Assembly: GCA_016771945.1 (NCBI GenBank)
Contig: QZLF01000003.1
Span: 682,001-746,000 of the forward strand
Direction of reading: 5' to 3'
Length of the DNA: 64,000 nucleotides
From: Candidatus Leucobacter sulfamidivorax
GTDB taxonomy: Bacteria > Actinomycetota > Actinomycetes > Actinomycetales > Microbacteriaceae
The notes below the pieces were generated by a model. That model saw nothing but the letters and a program-made list of their open reading frames with translations. It did not search any database and was not told the DNA's origin. Position numbers and translations under genes: made by a program. Positions 4,750-22,960 of this stretch are shown in pieces (the first letter of the stretch is position 1; each line of letters begins with the position of its first letter).

Positions 4750-6106
4750 TTGCCTCACGTCAAGATGTCCGGGAGTGATTGAAACGTGCCTCACGAAAAA
4801 TGTCCGCGTCGCTCAGGCGGCGGGACGTGTGCCCTGTGTGCGGGCGGAGGCCAGCTCGATCAGCTGCTGCTGGATCTGATTGATCCGGCGAGTGATGCGC
4901 GCCGGGTTCAGCTTCGCATGCTCGCGCTCCAGTCGGGCGCGGGTCTTCTTGTCGAGGACGCCGGCATCGAGGAGCCGCTGGTACGGGGTGCGGGGTTTGT
5001 CATAGACCCGCTTCTTCCGGCCCGCGCTGGTGTGGGTCCAGCCGATCGCTTTCACGCAGGGCAGCAGGTGATTCTTGCGGTCCATCACGAGGACCCAGAG
5101 CTCGTTGAGCAGCGTCATCTCCGCTTCGGTCTCGTAGCGGTAGCGGAACGCGTGGCGGCGGACCCAGTCGCCGTTGCGCTGCTCAACGTGCGCGTTGTCG
5201 TTGTGCTGGTAGGGTCGTCCCCGGGTGACGGGGATCTCGTGCTTGTCGGCCCACGCGATCACGCCCCAGTTCATGAACTCGCTTCCGTTGTCGAAGTCGA
5301 CCCCCGCGACCGGGACCGGCGCGTGGGCGCGCATCCATTCCAGTGCGCCGTGGACGTGCACGTAAGCGTTGTTGCGGATCGTGCGCAGCATCGTCCACCC
5401 CGCGACCGGGTCGGTGCCGGTCAGTGTGCGCAGGAACTCGCCCTTGAGGGTGTGGCCGCAGTGCGCGACGGTGTCCAGCTCCAAGAACCCCGGGACGGTC
5501 AGCGGTGCGTCCATGCTGGTGCGCGTCGGGATCGAGGACCGCAGAATATGGCTCGGTTTGGTGCCCGACAGGGCGACCGGGTAGGCGGCATCCTTGTGGG
5601 GCTTCAGGTACCGGTCGATTGTCGCCGGCGACATCGCTCGCAGCTCATCGAGTACCTGATCGGTGACGCGCGGGGCCACCTTGCCAAGTTCACGGAACCG
5701 GACCAGGCGTTCCAGCGTGTCGTCCATGACTGCGGCGAGGTACTTCCCCGATGGCTGACCGGCCAGCCGCCACACCTCCTGCAGCACGACGAGCGCGTCG
5801 TACGAGTACTTCCGCGGCCGAGGCTTCCGTTCCTGTGCTCCCACGGACCCCTTCCGGGCGTTCGCGGCGCGGATCGCGCGGCGAGCGTGGTCCCGGGTCC
5901 ACCCCGTTGATGCGACCAGCGCGTCGAGGATCTCGCCCTTGCCCGCCTTGTCTGCTTTCGCGTACTCGCGGGCGAACTTCTTCGTCAGATCACGGCGCGC
6001 GGCCATCGGTAGCTCCCTGCTCACATGGTCAGGGAACCCGAATCGCTACGCGGACATTCTTATGTGAGGCACGCGCAGGCCTTCCCGGACCTTTTAGGTG
6101 AGTCAA
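4750..6106 (-). mobile_element. Insertion sequence B: second integrase-core element with doubled ends
   Basis: It has the same architecture as element A. The left end has TTGCCTCACGTCAAGATGTC (from 4750) and a second TGCCTCAC...ATGTCCGCG copy at about 4785-4807. The right end has inverted copies at about 6050-6073 and 6084-6106. The TGCCTCA half is shared with element A, while the second half (ATGTCCGCG against TTGATCGCG) is element-specific. The right outer end abuts GTCGTCGAT, almost the same octamer that follows element A. I see no clean target duplication. Confidence 0.82.
4813..6006 (-). CDS. DDE transposase, integrase catalytic core (element B)
   Basis: A transposase of about 397 residues. 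The N-terminal HTH region (GEILDALVASTGWTRDHARR) is followed by an integrase core with D in LELDTVAHCGHTLKGEF (about residue 178), D in VDFDNGSEF (about 239) and E in AHVEQRNGDWVRR (about 275), again DD(35)E. I choose ATG 6006 because a GGGAG ribosome site lies six bases before it; a GTG at 6024 is an alternative. It is intact, and related to but clearly different from the transposase of element A, so the two elements do not form a composite transposon. Confidence 0.88.
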   Translation of the reverse strand: MAARRDLTKKFAREYAKADKAGKGEILDALVASTGWTRDHARRAIRAANARKGSVGAQERKPRPRKYSYDALVVLQEVWRLAGQPSGKYLAAVMDDTLERLVRFRELGKVAPRVTDQVLDELRAMSPATIDRYLKPHKDAAYPVALSGTKPSHILRSSIPTRTSMDAPLTVPGFLELDTVAHCGHTLKGEFLRTLTGTDPVAGWTMLRTIRNNAYVHVHGALEWMRAHAPVPVAGVDFDNGSEFMNWGVIAWADKHEIPVTRGRPYQHNDNAHVEQRNGDWVRRHAFRYRYETEAEMTLLNELWVLVMDRKNHLLPCVKAIGWTHTSAGRKKRVYDKPRTPYQRLLDAGVLDKKTRARLEREHAKLNPARITRRINQIQQQLIELASARTQGTRPAA

Positions 6107-6151: not shown

Positions 6152-6240
6152 GGAGACATGCCGGAGCGGCCGAACGGACTTCACTGCTAATGAAGGGTCG
6201 GGGTTAAACTCGACCGGGGGTTCAAATCCCCCTGTCTCCG
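6152..6240 (+). tRNA. tRNA-Ser (anticodon GCU)
   Basis: An 89-nt cloverleaf with acceptor GGAGACA/TGTCTCC, discriminator G and an encoded CCA at 6241-6243. The anticodon stem-loop is CTTCACTGCTAATGAAG with GCT at the centre. A long variable arm (GGTCGGGGTTAAACTCGACC) marks it as class II serine tRNA, and the T-arm is GGGGGTTCAAATCCCCC. It reads AGC/AGU codons. A strong terminator hairpin begins at the CCA. Confidence 0.96.
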
Positions 6241-6242
6241 CC

Positions 6243-6290
6243 ATGTGTGTAGGGGACTCCGCCTTCGGGCGGGGTCCCCTACACACATTT
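6243..6290 (+). terminator. Rho-independent terminator of tRNA-Ser(GCU)
   Basis: A near-perfect 21-bp stem: ATGTGTGTAGGGGACTCCGC... (6243-6263) pairs with its complement at 6268-6288 across a TTCG tetraloop, followed by TTT. Confidence 0.9.
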
Positions 6291-6464: not shown

Positions 6465-7901
6465 TTGTGATGTCTCGGGACATCAGTGACAAATGTGTGT
6501 CAGGACATCGGTGACAGTTCTTGTCTCAACACATCGGTGACACTCCGCCGGTTCGGCCTGCTCAATCCGCGCCGTGCCCGCGTCTGGGACGCCGACCAGT
6601 GGACACATGCCGGACCCCGTTCCGCGGGATCTCGTACTCCACGAGCAGGTCTCCTCGCTCATCGAACAGCATCATCATGGTCTGATCCCAGACCGCGTGA
6701 ATAGTCTCACCGATCATCCACCTCGCGAGGTAGTAGAAGACTTTGTCGATCGAGACCCCACCATTGCTCTGAACCTGGGCCGTGGCCTCCCCGCCCGGGA
6801 CTCCCGCAGCCCCGTCCCCGACGCGTGGAATCCCGCCGACGGGTGGTGTCCCTGGAGGGCGCGGGGGCGGCGCGACCGGGGTCGCGTCCCACGCCTCACG
6901 CGGGGTCATCCGTCCGGGCAGCCCCTGATGGGGGCGTTGGGTGTTGTAGATCACGTCGAAGCGGTCGCATTGGGTCTGGAGCTCGGCGATGCTCTCCGCG
7001 AGGGGCTGCTGGTCCAACCATCGGAACAGGGTCTGATGGAACCGCTCGTTCTTGCCCTGCGTGGTCGGTTTCCCCGGTCTGCCGGTGATCGCTTCGACCC
7101 CGAGCGATGACGCGTACACGACGAGTTTCCCTTCCCACCCCCGCCGGGACGGGTTCAACGCGGTCCCGTTATCGGTGAGGAGTTTCTGCGGCACCCCGTA
7201 GCGGGCGATTCCTTTCTGGAACACGATGAGCGCGTCGTCCGCGGTCTCGGTCCGGGCGACATGGATCGCGGTCTGGGTCCGGGAATGATCGTCCTCGAGT
7301 TGGAAGATCACGCACTTCCGGCCGCGGGTGAGGACGTACTCGGCTGCGTCGAGTTGCCACAGGCAGTTCGGGGCGGGGTACACGAATCGTCGGTACGAGG
7401 CGCGGGGCTTCTTCTTCGGTTCGTTCCGGGAGACGCCCTCCTGACGGAAGATTCTCGCCAAAGACGCTTCCGAGGGGGTGGCTAGGCCCATCCGTCGCAT
7501 GGTCTCGTGCACGCTGATCGGGCCGTGGTCCAGGCCGGAGCGTTCGAGCGCGGCACGGGTCTGGAGTGCGTGTTCCCGGGTGGCGTCAGGGATCGTGGAG
7601 GGTGAGGTGCGTGGGCGGCGGGAGCGGGGTTCCAGGGCCGCGGACGGGCCCTGGGTTCGGGCGCGGTTCAGGATCTTGTAGAACACGTTCCTGGATATCC
7701 CGTGCTCGGCGCAGAACGAGGACACGGTCCCGCGTGGGGCGTCATCGGGCCAGGTACTGATCGCGAGGCGGACACGGGGATCGACGGGTTGATTTGTGCT
7801 CATCCCATCAATCTGTGGGGAGAAGTGTCACCACCAAGACCACTCGGAGTGTCACCGATGTGTTGATACAGAACTGTCACCGATGTCCTGCGACATAACA
7901 A
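6465..7901 (-). mobile_element. IS481-family insertion sequence with 14-bp target duplication
   Basis: The right end (inverted) and left end share TTGTNATGTC followed by repeated GGACATCGGTGACA-type units: three units on the left (about 6470-6540) and two on the right (about 7840-7897). Directly outside, CGCGTGTGCAATGG occurs at 6451-6464 and 7902-7915, a 14-bp target duplication (15 with an ambiguous T). The element is about 1437 bp and carries one intact transposase. The good duplication and intact gene suggest a fairly recent insertion. Confidence 0.9.
6562..7803 (-). CDS. IS481-family transposase
   Basis: 413 residues. An N-terminal HTH (FCAEHGISRNVFYKILNR and a second HTH_Tnp_IS481-like part) precedes the rve core: WQLDAAEY (D152), LLTDNGTAL (D211) and KPTTQGKNERFHQTL (E253), then the family marker YNTQRPHQGLPGRMTP. 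A Pro/Gly-rich linker and a ~70-residue C-terminal domain follow (FYYLARWMIGETIHAVW), probably an SH3-like wing. The ATG at 7803 is clear. The gene lies inside the terminal repeats and seems intact. Confidence 0.94.
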   Translation of the reverse strand: MSTNQPVDPRVRLAISTWPDDAPRGTVSSFCAEHGISRNVFYKILNRARTQGPSAALEPRSRRPRTSPSTIPDATREHALQTRAALERSGLDHGPISVHETMRRMGLATPSEASLARIFRQEGVSRNEPKKKPRASYRRFVYPAPNCLWQLDAAEYVLTRGRKCVIFQLEDDHSRTQTAIHVARTETADDALIVFQKGIARYGVPQKLLTDNGTALNPSRRGWEGKLVVYASSLGVEAITGRPGKPTTQGKNERFHQTLFRWLDQQPLAESIAELQTQCDRFDVIYNTQRPHQGLPGRMTPREAWDATPVAPPPRPPGTPPVGGIPRVGDGAAGVPGGEATAQVQSNGGVSIDKVFYYLARWMIGETIHAVWDQTMMMLFDERGDLLVEYEIPRNGVRHVSTGRRPRRGHGAD

Positions 7902-9233: not shown

Positions 9234-9365
9234 CCTCAGTGTCGATCGATGATGCGCGCCCGTTCGGCGCGCTCCCCGACTTTACCGCGCACTGCTGGGC
9301 GACACCTGGAATGAGCCCGGCCGCGCCCTCAGCGCGGAATCGTATCGGGGGCTGAGCTCGAAGCG

Positions 9366-9390
9366 AGAGCCCCGCGATTCGCGGGGCTCT
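9366..9390 (-). terminator. Hairpin closing structured module 2
   Basis: AGAGCCCCGCG and CGCGGGGCTCT pair perfectly (11 bp) across a 3-nt loop, just 3' (minus strand) of the second tRNA-end-like module. An almost identical hairpin closes module 1 at 9525-9549. Confidence 0.6.
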
Positions 9391-9396
9391 CTGCGA

Positions 9397-9514
9397 GCGG
9401 AGGGTAGGGGATTTGAACCCCGGCCGCGCGCTTGGAGCGACGCATCGCGTCGCGCGCGCACGCCGCTGGGCCGCGCTCCGCGGCCCAGTTGGGGTTCTGA
9501 AAAATCCCCTCCCC
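9397..9514 (-). other. Structured tRNA-3'-end-like module 2
   Basis: Read on the minus strand it starts with AGGGGATTTTTCAGAACCCC and ends with GGGGTTCAAATCCCCT followed by ACCCTCCGC. AGGGGATTT (9510-9502) pairs with AAATCCCCT (9414-9406) and GGGGTT pairs with AACCCC, giving a two-part closing stem. Inside are CTGGGCCGCG/CGCGGCCCAG (9466-9488) and GCGACGC/GCGTCGC (9437-9453) hairpins. The 3' segment imitates the T-arm and acceptor of tRNA-Ser(UGA), which lies upstream at 9713-9800. It is not a tRNA: it has no anticodon arm. See findings. Confidence 0.55.
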
Positions 9515-9524
9515 GAAGTGAGCG

Positions 9525-9549
9525 AGAGCCCCGCGAATCGCGGGGCTCT
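9525..9549 (-). terminator. Hairpin closing structured module 1
   Basis: AGAGCCCCGCG and CGCGGGGCTCT (11 bp, loop AAT) lie immediately 3' of module 1 on the minus strand. It differs from the 9366-9390 hairpin only in its loop. Confidence 0.6.
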
Positions 9550-9555
9550 CTGCGA

Positions 9556-9672
9556 GCGGAGGGTGCGGGATTTGAACCCCGGCCAGGCGCTAAAGCGAAG
9601 CGCAGCTTCGCGCGCCGATGCCGCCGAGCGCGCCAGCGCGCTCGGTCACGGGTTCTCAAAAATCCCGCACCC
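9556..9672 (-). other. Structured tRNA-3'-end-like module 1
   Basis: On the minus strand it starts GGGTGCGGGATTTTTGAGAA and ends with GGGGTTCAAATCCCGCACCC followed by TCCGC. The first 13 bases (9672-9660) are a perfect complement of AAATCCCGCACCC (9573-9561). GGGTT/AACCC adds an inner stem. Two hairpins sit inside: CCGAGCGCG/CGCGCTCGG (about 9624-9645) and GCGAAGC/GCTTCGC (about 9592-9611). Its last ~20 bases equal the 3' end of the adjacent tRNA-Ser(UGA) apart from one base in the T-stem. Hairpin positions match those in module 2, but the hairpin sequences differ. Confidence 0.55.
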
Positions 9673-9680
9673 AGAGCGGA

Positions 9681-9708
9681 CGAAGGCCCCGCGTACGCGG
9701 GGCCTTCG
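9681..9708 (-). terminator. Terminator of tRNA-Ser(UGA)
   Basis: A perfect 28-nt palindrome, CGAAGGCCCCGCG/CGCGGGGCCTTCG with a TA centre, directly after the tRNA 3' end on the minus strand. Confidence 0.75.
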
Positions 9709-9712
9709 GAAG

Positions 9713-9800
9713 CGGAGGGTGCGGGATTTGAACCCGCGAGACGGGGTTACCGCCTGCTTGTTTTCAAGACAAGTTCCTTCGGCCGCTCGGACAACCCTCC
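9713..9800 (-). tRNA. tRNA-Ser (anticodon UGA)
   Basis: An 88-nt class II cloverleaf: acceptor GGAGGGT/ACCCTCC with discriminator G, anticodon arm CTTGTCTTGAAAACAAG with TGA, variable arm CAGGCGGTAACCCCGTCTC and T-arm GCGGGTTCAAATCCCGC. CCA is not encoded. It lies near serS (10716-11993), whose enzyme charges it. Confidence 0.95.
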
Positions 9801-21074: not shown

Positions 21075-22787
21075 TCAGGCGAGCGCGCGAGCGACGAGGG
21101 ATCGCGCCTCCTCCTGCACGAGCGCCAGGTGCTCGTGCCCCCGGAACGACTCCGCGTAGACCTTCATGACGTCTTCGGTGCCGCTCGGTCGCGCGGCGAA
21201 CCAGGCGTGCTCCGTCTGCACCTTGATGCCGCCGATGGGCGCCCCGTTGCCCGGCGCGGTCGCGAGCACCGCGGTGATCGGATCGCCCGCGAGCTCGGCG
21301 TCGACGACCGCATCGGGCGAGAGCGCCGCGAGCGCGGCCTTCTGCTCGGGGGTGGCGGGCGCGTCGACGCGGGCGTAGGCCGGATCGCCGAAGCGCTCCG
21401 CGAGCTCGCGGTAGCGCTCCGAGGGCGACTGCCCGGTCACGGCCCGGATCTCGGCCGCGAGCAGCGCGAGCAGGATGCCGTCCTTGTCGGTGCTCCAGGC
21501 GCTGCCGTCGGAGCACAGGAACGAGGCGCCGGCGCTCTCCTCTCCCCCGAAGGCCAGCGACCCGCCCACGAGGCCCGGCACGAACCATTTGAAGCCGACG
21601 GGCACCTCGACGAGCTCGCGCCCGTGGGAGGCGACGACCCGGTCGATGATCGCCGACGACACGAGCGTCTTCCCGATGCCCGCGGAGACGGGCCAGTCGG
21701 GCCGGTGCGTCAGCAGATAGTCGATCGCGACAGCGAGGAAGTGGTTGGGGTTCATGAGGCCCGCATCGGGCGTGACGATGCCGTGGCGGTCGGCGTCGGC
21801 GTCGTTCGCGACCACGAGGTCGAAGTCGGAGCGGTAGGGCAGGACGGTCGCCATGGCGTGCCGCGAGGAGGGGTCCATGCGGATCCGCCCGTCCCAGTCG
21901 AGATGCATGAACCCCCAGCGCGGATCGACGCCGGGGCCGAGCACGGTGAGATCGAGTCCGTAGCGGTCGCGGATCGCCGCCCAGTAGGCGACGCTCGCCC
22001 CGCCGAGCGGGTGCGCGCCGAGGCGCACACCGGCCCGGGCGATGGCCGGCATGTCGATCACCCGGTCGAGCGCGTCGACGTAGCCGCCGAGGAAGTCGTA
22101 GGTGCCCGGCAAGCCGCTGGTGCGAAGCATCGCTTCGCGGGGCGACGGCGCCGAAGCCGCCTCGGCTTCGGCCGACGTGCGCAGCACGGAGGAATCCGTC
22201 TCCACCGGTTTCCGCCACTCGCCCGACTCCAGCAGTCGATTCGCGCGGCGCGCGATCCAGCCGGTGGCGTCCGCATCGGCCGGACCCCCGTGAGGCGGGT
22301 TGTACTTGAAGCCCCCGTCGCCGGGCGGGTTGTGGCTCGGCGTGACGACGATGCCGTCGGCGCGTTCGGGATCGTCCGCGGCACGATCACGGTTGTGGTC
22401 GAGGATGGCGCGACTCACGGCGGGCGTGGGCACGTAGGCCTCGTCTCCGCCGCCCGCGCTCTCGAGCACCCGGACTCCGGCCGCCGTGAGCACCTCGACC
22501 GCGACCCGGGCGGCGGGGGCGGAGAGCGGATGCGTGTCGGCGCCGAGGAAGAGCGGGCCCCGGATGCCCTGCTCGGCGCGGTACTCGGCGATCGCGGCGC
22601 TGATCGCCGCGATGTGGGCCTCGTTGAACGAGCCGTTCAGCGCGGTGCCGCGGTGGCCCGACGTGCCGAAGACCACGCGCTGCGCCGGGTCGGCCGGGTC
22701 GGGGACGATCCCGTCGAATGCGGCGAGCAGCGCCTCGAGGTCGACGAGGTCCCCGGGCTCGGCCTGCAGGCCTGCTCTCTCGTGCAT
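21075..22787 (-). CDS. pgm: Alpha-D-phosphohexomutase / phosphoglucomutase
   Basis: 570 residues from ATG 22787, preceded by GGGAGG at good spacing. FGTSGHRG is followed by the phosphoserine loop [19 protein letters not shown] (~residue 145), the metal loop [10 protein letters not shown], the sugar-binding GEESAGASF and the C-terminal phosphate site ARPSGTED. This is the long bacterial Pgm type (about 545-570 residues), interconverting glucose-1-phosphate and glucose-6-phosphate in the cytoplasm. No operon partner is seen; the divergent HAD gene starts 174 bp away. Confidence 0.95.
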
Positions 22788-22960
22788 GCCGTTCCTCCCT
22801 CTGCGCACTCGGCCTCGCCGTCGTGGGCGGCGATCTCACGAGCTGTTCGAACGCGCTGCGTTCCCACGACGCTCGTGCACCCCCAGTCTCTCAGCTTCCG
22901 CCCGGAACCGCGGTTCTCGCGAGTCACCCGTCGTTCACCTTCTCGGCCTACAGTGAAGGC

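Follow-up and report, generated by a model that had tools for sequence, protein, structure and literature searches.

On the minus strand of the window, by which we mean the whole stretch of 64,000 nucleotides analysed here, a seryl-tRNA synthetase gene and a HAD-family hydrolase gene are followed by the tRNA-Ser(UGA) gene, a terminator-like hairpin, two structured modules and a LytR-CpsA-Psr gene. The arrangement of tRNA, terminator and two modules had been proposed in a preliminary description of this DNA, and it was borne out by ARAGORN, Rfam and a repeat search (Table 1). A T-arm/acceptor sequence of 25 nt occurs three times in the window, with starts at 9396, 9555 and 9711, and thus at a spacing of 159 and 156 nt. 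The first strand of each module is complementary to the T-arm copy that closes the module, over 13/13 nt in module 1 and 12/13 nt in module 2, so that the tRNA-like pairing described earlier stands. The two closing hairpins are also nearly identical, as had been noted: among the three terminators of the locus, the second and third share 91% identity, compared with 68% for the first and second. The bulge on the 3' side of H2 in module 1 reads TTTA, which is one nucleotide shorter than in most of the aligned copies.

Table 1. Features of the tRNA-Ser(UGA) locus and its two modules, in sense order.
Feature	Position	Strand	Basis
tRNA-Ser(UGA), target gene; T-arm/acceptor is the copied part	9712..9800	-	ARAGORN and Rfam
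First terminator-like hairpin, mirror centre	9681..9708	-	sequence, inverted repeat I1, fold
Module 1 first strand (whole)	9650..9672	-	complementarity, fold, bulge scan
Module 1 inverted T-arm/acceptor copy	9660-9672	-	13/13 nt complementary
Module 1 first-strand bulge TTGA, 4 nt	9656-9659	-	fold with single 4-nt bulge; bulge scan
Module 1 outer arm GAACCC	9650-9655	-	
Module 1 hairpin H1	9624..9645	-	fold; family covariation in helix 2
Module 1 hairpin H2	9580..9623	-	fold; alignment A2; helices 3 and 4
Direct tRNA T-arm/acceptor copy closing module 1	9555..9580	-	repeat family D2
Terminator-like hairpin 3' of module 1	9524..9550	-	
Module 2 first strand (whole)	9491..9514	-	complementarity, fold, bulge scan
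Module 2 inverted T-arm/acceptor copy	9502-9514	-	
Module 2 first-strand bulge TTCA	9498-9501	-	
Module 2 outer arm GAACCCC	9491-9497	-	
Module 2 hairpin H1	9466..9488	-	fold; family covariation
Module 2 hairpin H2, 5-nt 3'-side bulge TCCAA	9421..9465	-	fold; alignment A2; covariation
Direct T-arm/acceptor copy closing module 2	9396..9421	-	repeat search; same-genus tRNA-Ser(UGA) genes
Terminator-like hairpin 3' of module 2	9365..9391	-	

Both modules fold far better than shuffled sequences of their own, with z-scores of -6.24 for module 1 and -6.40 for module 2 and with none of 200 shuffles as good. They had been described as neither tRNAs nor members of a recognised RNA family, and the searches agree: tRNA is the sole Rfam family above gathering score in the window, and relaxed thresholds add three sub-threshold matches to the tRNAs. 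Two tRNA genes are called in the whole window, and none inside the modules. Elsewhere in the window, the tRNA-Ser(GCT) gene at 6152-6243 is flanked by two integrase-core (rve-type) transposase-like ORFs on the minus strand, at 4813-6024 and 6562-7803, the first of which scores under the Pfam cut-off.

A diverged tandem duplication was considered as the origin of the module pair and rejected. In a comparison of 27 copies, the H1-H2 cores of the two window modules are 68% identical, while the nearest relative of the module 1 core is a copy elsewhere in the same genome (82%) and that of the module 2 core is the tRNA-Thr module of another genome, G029 (86%). The modules are best read as two separate insertions from different subfamilies into one target, since each core is nearer to a copy elsewhere than to its neighbour. 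The right-hand module 2, or its T-arm copy, may be the older of the two, because the rightmost T-arm copy, AAATCCCCTACCC, is identical to the T-arm of 14 of the 15 same-genus tRNA-Ser(UGA) genes read, while the T-arm of the window's own gene, AAATCCCGCACCC, agrees with the copy in module 1. Tandem arrays at other sites are made of units that are 95.7-100% identical; these near-identical arrays would have arisen by later, ordinary tandem duplication.

The modules belong to a dispersed family. BLAST with the window region returned partial copies elsewhere in its own genome, and the same kind of search over 60 genomes returned copies behind other tRNAs. An alignment was built from 18 modules, representing nine tRNA kinds by anticodon together with three loci where no tRNA is called nearby (L031, L039, L045). 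The core that they share consists of H1 and H2, the latter built from a 7-bp inner stem, an outer stem and, between them on the 3' side, a YYYRA-like bulge of 4-5 nt. RNAalifold reports 12 of 31 pairs changed on both sides. For the structure as drawn, 94.9% of the cells are paired, and 12 pairs, or 57 cells, carry changes on both sides; none of 500 shuffles reached the pairing, double-change or covariation figures, and 4 of the 500 reached the value observed for further pair types. The covariation across the family is real. The compensatory change that had been noted between the two window modules is thus a true property of the family, but the two modules are not a single duplicated unit that has drifted, given their 68% identity.

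A covariance model made from the 18 copies was used for a genome search with strict filters, in which matches were listed at E <= 0.001. It found matches in 30 of 54 Leucobacter genomes, 16 of them in the genome of the window; a locus-level search with the model covered 88 loci and thereby a part of these genome-wide matches. Covariation and copies elsewhere, on both of which the preliminary description had let its reading depend, are therefore both present. Outside the genus, among 199 genomes drawn from the bacterial family, four matched weakly. One of the four, G174, clearly shows mirror and direct copy in an array behind tRNA-Gly(UCC); behind tRNA-Gly(CCC) it carries a core with a direct copy.

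The copies have a marked polarity with respect to their neighbours. For this count we used the 96 of 132 matches with E <= 5e-6, with arrays counted unit by unit; tRNA-linked copies are favoured in it, as a query that contained the tRNA supplied some of the loci. A tRNA or tmRNA on the same strand lies upstream within 230 nt of 36 of the 96 copies (Gly 13, Ser 7, Thr 6, Arg 3, Val 3, Leu 2, Met 1, tmRNA 1), a same-strand tRNA lies downstream of two, and none of the 96 has a tRNA or tmRNA on the opposite strand within 230 nt. The remaining 58 copies have no tRNA or tmRNA near. Several of these sit, in sense orientation, at the 3' ends of htpX- and fabG-type genes, as named by NCBIfam with the HtpX models below their cut-offs and a FabG subfamily above its cut-off. 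The fabG site is occupied in three genomes, one of them G029 (L252), at the same boundary and with different mirror centres. A small tRNA-targeting mobile element had been among the options raised at first; the structured, dispersed nature of the family and its frequent position 3' of tRNAs agree with it, but the copies behind htpX and fabG do not fit a restriction to tRNAs. The original observation is real, and more general than first seen.

Several single copies deserve a description of their own. In G029 (L. massiliensis) a copy lies 3' of the tmRNA gene (L124, 725-1293), overlapped by a tRNA-Ser(ACT) call of ARAGORN that is doubtful. In G137 (L221), an array of related hairpins with a period of 114 nt is found upstream of a tRNA-Leu instead of behind it. 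The window itself holds a weaker copy at 22101..22173 on the minus strand (38.1 bits, E 1.6e-5), which is in frame inside a phosphoglucomutase ORF (21075-22808, minus strand). This ORF scores above the cut-off of the pgm equivalog TIGR01132, and at the place of the copy its product has extra residues relative to the closest solved structure, PDB 9vfy.

Most of the well-preserved copies examined behind a gene carry the 3' end of their own target twice, once in mirror image and once directly. In sense order, the outer arm of the target (a) and an inner sequence are followed by a centre, which is often the terminator hairpin, and by the inverted inner sequence. Then come a bulge of 4-6 nt, the inverted outer arm, H1, H2 and a direct copy that restarts at a. 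The copies used for the comparisons were chosen by hand: 21 for the own-flank test, 14 and 13 for the pairing test, 53 for the mirror scan and 27 each for the folds and for the core comparison given above. In 18 of the 21 copies, what follows the core agrees more closely with the copy's own upstream flank than with any of 20 other flanks; L004, L052 and L093 are the exceptions. Nine nucleotides of the first strand, compared with the upstream flank alone, give a weak match, with a mean of 12.7 versus 10.1, and are unbeaten in 4/21. In the 14 non-tRNA sites, 68 of 84 outer-arm positions pair with the right end of the same copy, versus 42.1 when right ends are permuted (0/20000); in the 13 tRNA/tmRNA sites the figures are 71 of 78 versus 63.1 (2/20000). 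These results are partly favoured, as the copies were found by a model that rewards outer pairs.

The mirror itself, defined as 6+6 nt with at most one mismatch per half, was found in 37 of the 53 copies, several of which carry two mismatches, and 31 of these 37 have a bulge of 4, 5 or 6 nt. When the upstream sequences were shuffled, a mirror appeared in 135 of 419 cases, with the bulge spread over 0-9 nt and 42 of the 135 at 4-6 nt. No 6+6-nt mirror was seen in the remaining 16 copies. To these belong three of the four tested htpX copies as well as two Ser copies, L039 and L086; the two Ser copies fold with an internal loop of 4 versus 8 nt, a loop also present in L010, which passed the scan with two mismatches. 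When the tRNA/tmRNA copies were folded from the T-arm to the outer arm, 21 of 27 had 4-6 nt bulged out on the 3' side with nothing opposite, and in the same 27 copies the loops around the terminator are mostly symmetric. The bulged mirror is similar in form to H2. By eye, the folds of many tRNA copies show a mirror that starts immediately past the terminator hairpin. Two copies, L200 and L209, break off shortly behind H1 or inside it and lack the right copy, endings which point to a fixed left end and a variable right end.

Related loci without the core show the state of the target on its own. For htpX, where 27 of 32 loci were readable and the mirror was judged by eye together with the covariance model, the core is present in six loci (L151, L152, L158, L162, L115, L133), directly after the stop codon in five of them and about 24 nt later in L133, and absent from 21. 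An inverted CCGCCCAT-type arm after the stop codon was seen by eye in occupied loci only; in L155, CCGCCC lies a few nucleotides past the stop codon. For fabG, the model found the core in three of the 27 loci given to it (L246, L252, L269); among the 26 of 30 loci that were read, two core-bearing loci have the mirror with a 5-nt bulge, 23 have no mirror, and L267, which has no core, shows a chance mirror match with a 3-nt gap. Behind tRNA-Ser, 17 of 30 loci were read, two of them chosen because they are occupied, and neither mirror nor core was seen in any of the 15 same-genus tRNA-Ser(UGA) loci read. Behind tRNA-Gly(UCC), six of 42 loci read have a mirror, with a 5-nt bulge in L186, L195 (the place of L051), L200 and L209 and without a bulge in L184 and L238; the other 36 have none. 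Since related loci that have no core also have no mirror, the mirror arrives together with the insertion.

The explanation that we find most likely, and hold with moderate confidence, is a non-autonomous mobile hairpin element, common in Leucobacter, that would insert by foldback copying; that the family is mobile and mirrors its targets we hold more firmly than this explanation as a whole. From the anatomy of the copies, we infer the following mechanism. At the end of a gene or past it, often just past a terminator-like hairpin, a single-stranded 3' end would fold back and, as it is lengthened, acquire a mirror-image copy of the gene's own end. The extension would continue onto the H1-H2 sequence of the element, and the strand would then rejoin the target where the same segment starts, which would yield the direct copy, with the left copy leaving the tRNA or protein end intact. 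Either DNA at a replication fork or a terminated transcript could provide the strand; RNA is hinted at, since the mirror begins about where a transcript would end. It is worth pointing out that the left and right terminators differ at some loci, including module 1 of the window, which a simple one-step copy leaves unexplained and which counts against foldback copying. So do the 16 copies without a mirror, the positives with two mismatches, the matches among shuffled sequences and the weak agreement of the first strand with the upstream flank.

Two enzyme families were considered as general mobilisers and rejected. The Y1 transposase (PF01797) is found in none of the 54 genomes, in a search that matches 5 of 14 control genomes. 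Reverse transcriptase (RVT_1, PF00078) is found in 8 of the 54, which include the copy-rich G068 as well as G064, G007 and G008; it is absent from the copy-rich G000 (the genome of the window), G029 and G075, although these are draft genomes and the absence is uncertain to that extent. As reverse transcriptases are rare and Y1 transposases absent, a host polymerase or some other enzyme is favoured.

Host processes alone might also be at work. Quasipalindrome template switching and slippage on existing hairpins might produce the mirrors, with the core spreading passively and no machinery specific to it, and this is the rival to be taken most seriously, unlikely as we consider it. The mirror is mostly in register with the terminator, most genomes contain no candidate enzyme, and template switching can make and maintain RNA hairpins, according to one report (PMC8794818). 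However, the recurrent H2-like bulge of 4-6 nt and the constant, related core suggest that the element is recognised.

A retro-element, whose RNA or target transcript would be reverse-transcribed, inserted and truncated at one end, seems to us improbable. It would account for the fixed left boundary, the variable right end and the truncated single copies L200 and L209, as well as for a mirror that starts just past the terminator hairpin in many tRNA copies, but the scarcity of RVT_1 in the genus, and its absence from three of the copy-rich genomes, speaks against it.

A somewhat lower probability still is given to a functional 3'-end RNA, that is, a processing or regulatory RNA (a decoy or a 3' trailer) selected behind tRNAs, whose first strand pairs with the tRNA 3' end. 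The strong folds, the covariation and the frequency of copies behind tRNAs would all be expected of such an RNA, and the rtT repeat of E. coli is annotated as an sRNA. Yet the family is patchy in the genus (30/54 genomes), with most tRNA-Gly(UCC) loci lacking the mirror (36/42), and weak copies exist, one of them in frame within a gene. The regulatory decoy suggested in the preliminary description gains no support in particular, as a terminator-like hairpin usually precedes the modules, and copies with the same anatomy are likewise placed behind htpX and fabG. As for remnants of phage or integrative-element attachment sites at tRNA 3' ends, attachment classically takes place at tRNA T-arms and at tmRNA, and the core is flanked by direct T-arm copies, but this reading, including its earlier form as scars of one element, is very improbable: the family has its own dispersed, covarying core at unrelated sites, protein-gene ends among them, and target-specific inverted copies that att sites are not expected to give; the module has no match among 50,697 phage and 72,556 plasmid records at blastn sensitivity; and no integrated element bounded by the modules was seen in the window.

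The mobile hairpin element that we favour can be compared with several known systems. REP and BIME sequences are mobilised by RAYT (TnpA-REP, Y1) transposases and have repeats in alternating orientation. The Leucobacter copies are likewise short, dispersed hairpins without coding capacity, but their arrays run head to tail in one orientation, no Y1 transposase is found in the 54 genomes, and the target is copied both directly and in mirror image. MITEs are small, non-autonomous, dispersed elements with constant terminal inverted repeats and flanking target copies. The Leucobacter element resembles them in size, in being non-autonomous and dispersed and in its flanking target copies; its terminal inverted repeats, however, are derived from the target and differ by site, as seen in the pairing of the non-tRNA copies, and its target duplications are long and variable. 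Rickettsia palindromic elements are small and can sit in frame in genes, as does the copy in the pgm ORF of the window; the likeness is one of description and not of sequence, and we know of no target mirroring in them. Integron attC sites act as a folded single strand whose arms are separated by a short unpaired stretch. The Leucobacter arms are split in a similar way and have a similar length, but the bulge is on one strand only, the arms are specific to the target, and direct target copies are present.

Part of the design recurs in two families that have no such bulge. A second Leucobacter family differs in its core, and its inverted T-arm is free of a bulge; it is found behind tRNA-Gly and one tRNA-Ala at seven loci in six genomes (L276-L281, L286), that of the window's genome being L277 (G000 C2:102364-102489); a tally by genome gives 10 of 54, four of them matching over 25-60 nt only. 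In E. coli K-12, three units of 178 nt lie behind tyrV, each with an inverted T-arm copy of 22 nt that is 86% complementary to tRNA-Tyr (locus L220, 1287066-1287236 and neighbours), and the array ends in a partial unit. The hairpin part of rtT is present in 4692 of 5426 E. coli genomes, at a median of three places; two genomes without rtT have a different gene beside the tRNA and are not clean empty sites. By eye, a AGCGAGAGA stretch is common to rtT and the bulge-less Leucobacter family. The rtT/RttR repeats of the tyrT operon (RF00391) are like the Leucobacter element in their tandem units behind a tRNA, the copy of the tRNA 3' end, the GC hairpins and the inverted T-arm, and unlike it in their 178-nt unit and in lacking a 5-nt bulge, a comparison confined to the tyrT site. 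One report describes rtT as similar to BIME-type attenuators and as a sequence that could act in the stringent response (PMC2965389), and another lists rttR as containing a REP (PMC12306157). The RtT model (RF00391) has no match in the window at gathering score, and none in L238, L184, L010, L041 or L144 at E <= 0.5. The two designs are common in part, which we offer as a likeness and not as a claim of homology.

A wider proposal is more tentative, and we put it forward as a possibility that is rather less than even: an undescribed form of bacterial mobility, in which insertion at a 3' end would copy the target twice, directly and as a mirror whose bulge, fixed in size, imitates the element's own hairpin, while leaving the target whole, and in which the bulge-less second family and tyrT/rtT would be products of the same process. 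A literal-term search of the full-text literature, which is weak evidence of novelty, returned no description of a target-mirroring, tRNA-associated element. To that extent, the Leucobacter element appears to be a variant among the small palindromic elements of bacteria, with an insertion signature new to the literature searched.

Bacterial genomes commonly carry small palindromic repeats, and for many of these the means of spread is unclear. In the present family each insertion records its own history, in the form of the mirror copy, the bulge, the core and the direct copy, and related species show what the sites look like without it, so that the mechanism can be tested from genomes alone. 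A shared process, if true, would explain the origin of the tyrT/rtT repeats of E. coli. The family also suggests how an element can enter essential tRNA genes and still leave them intact.
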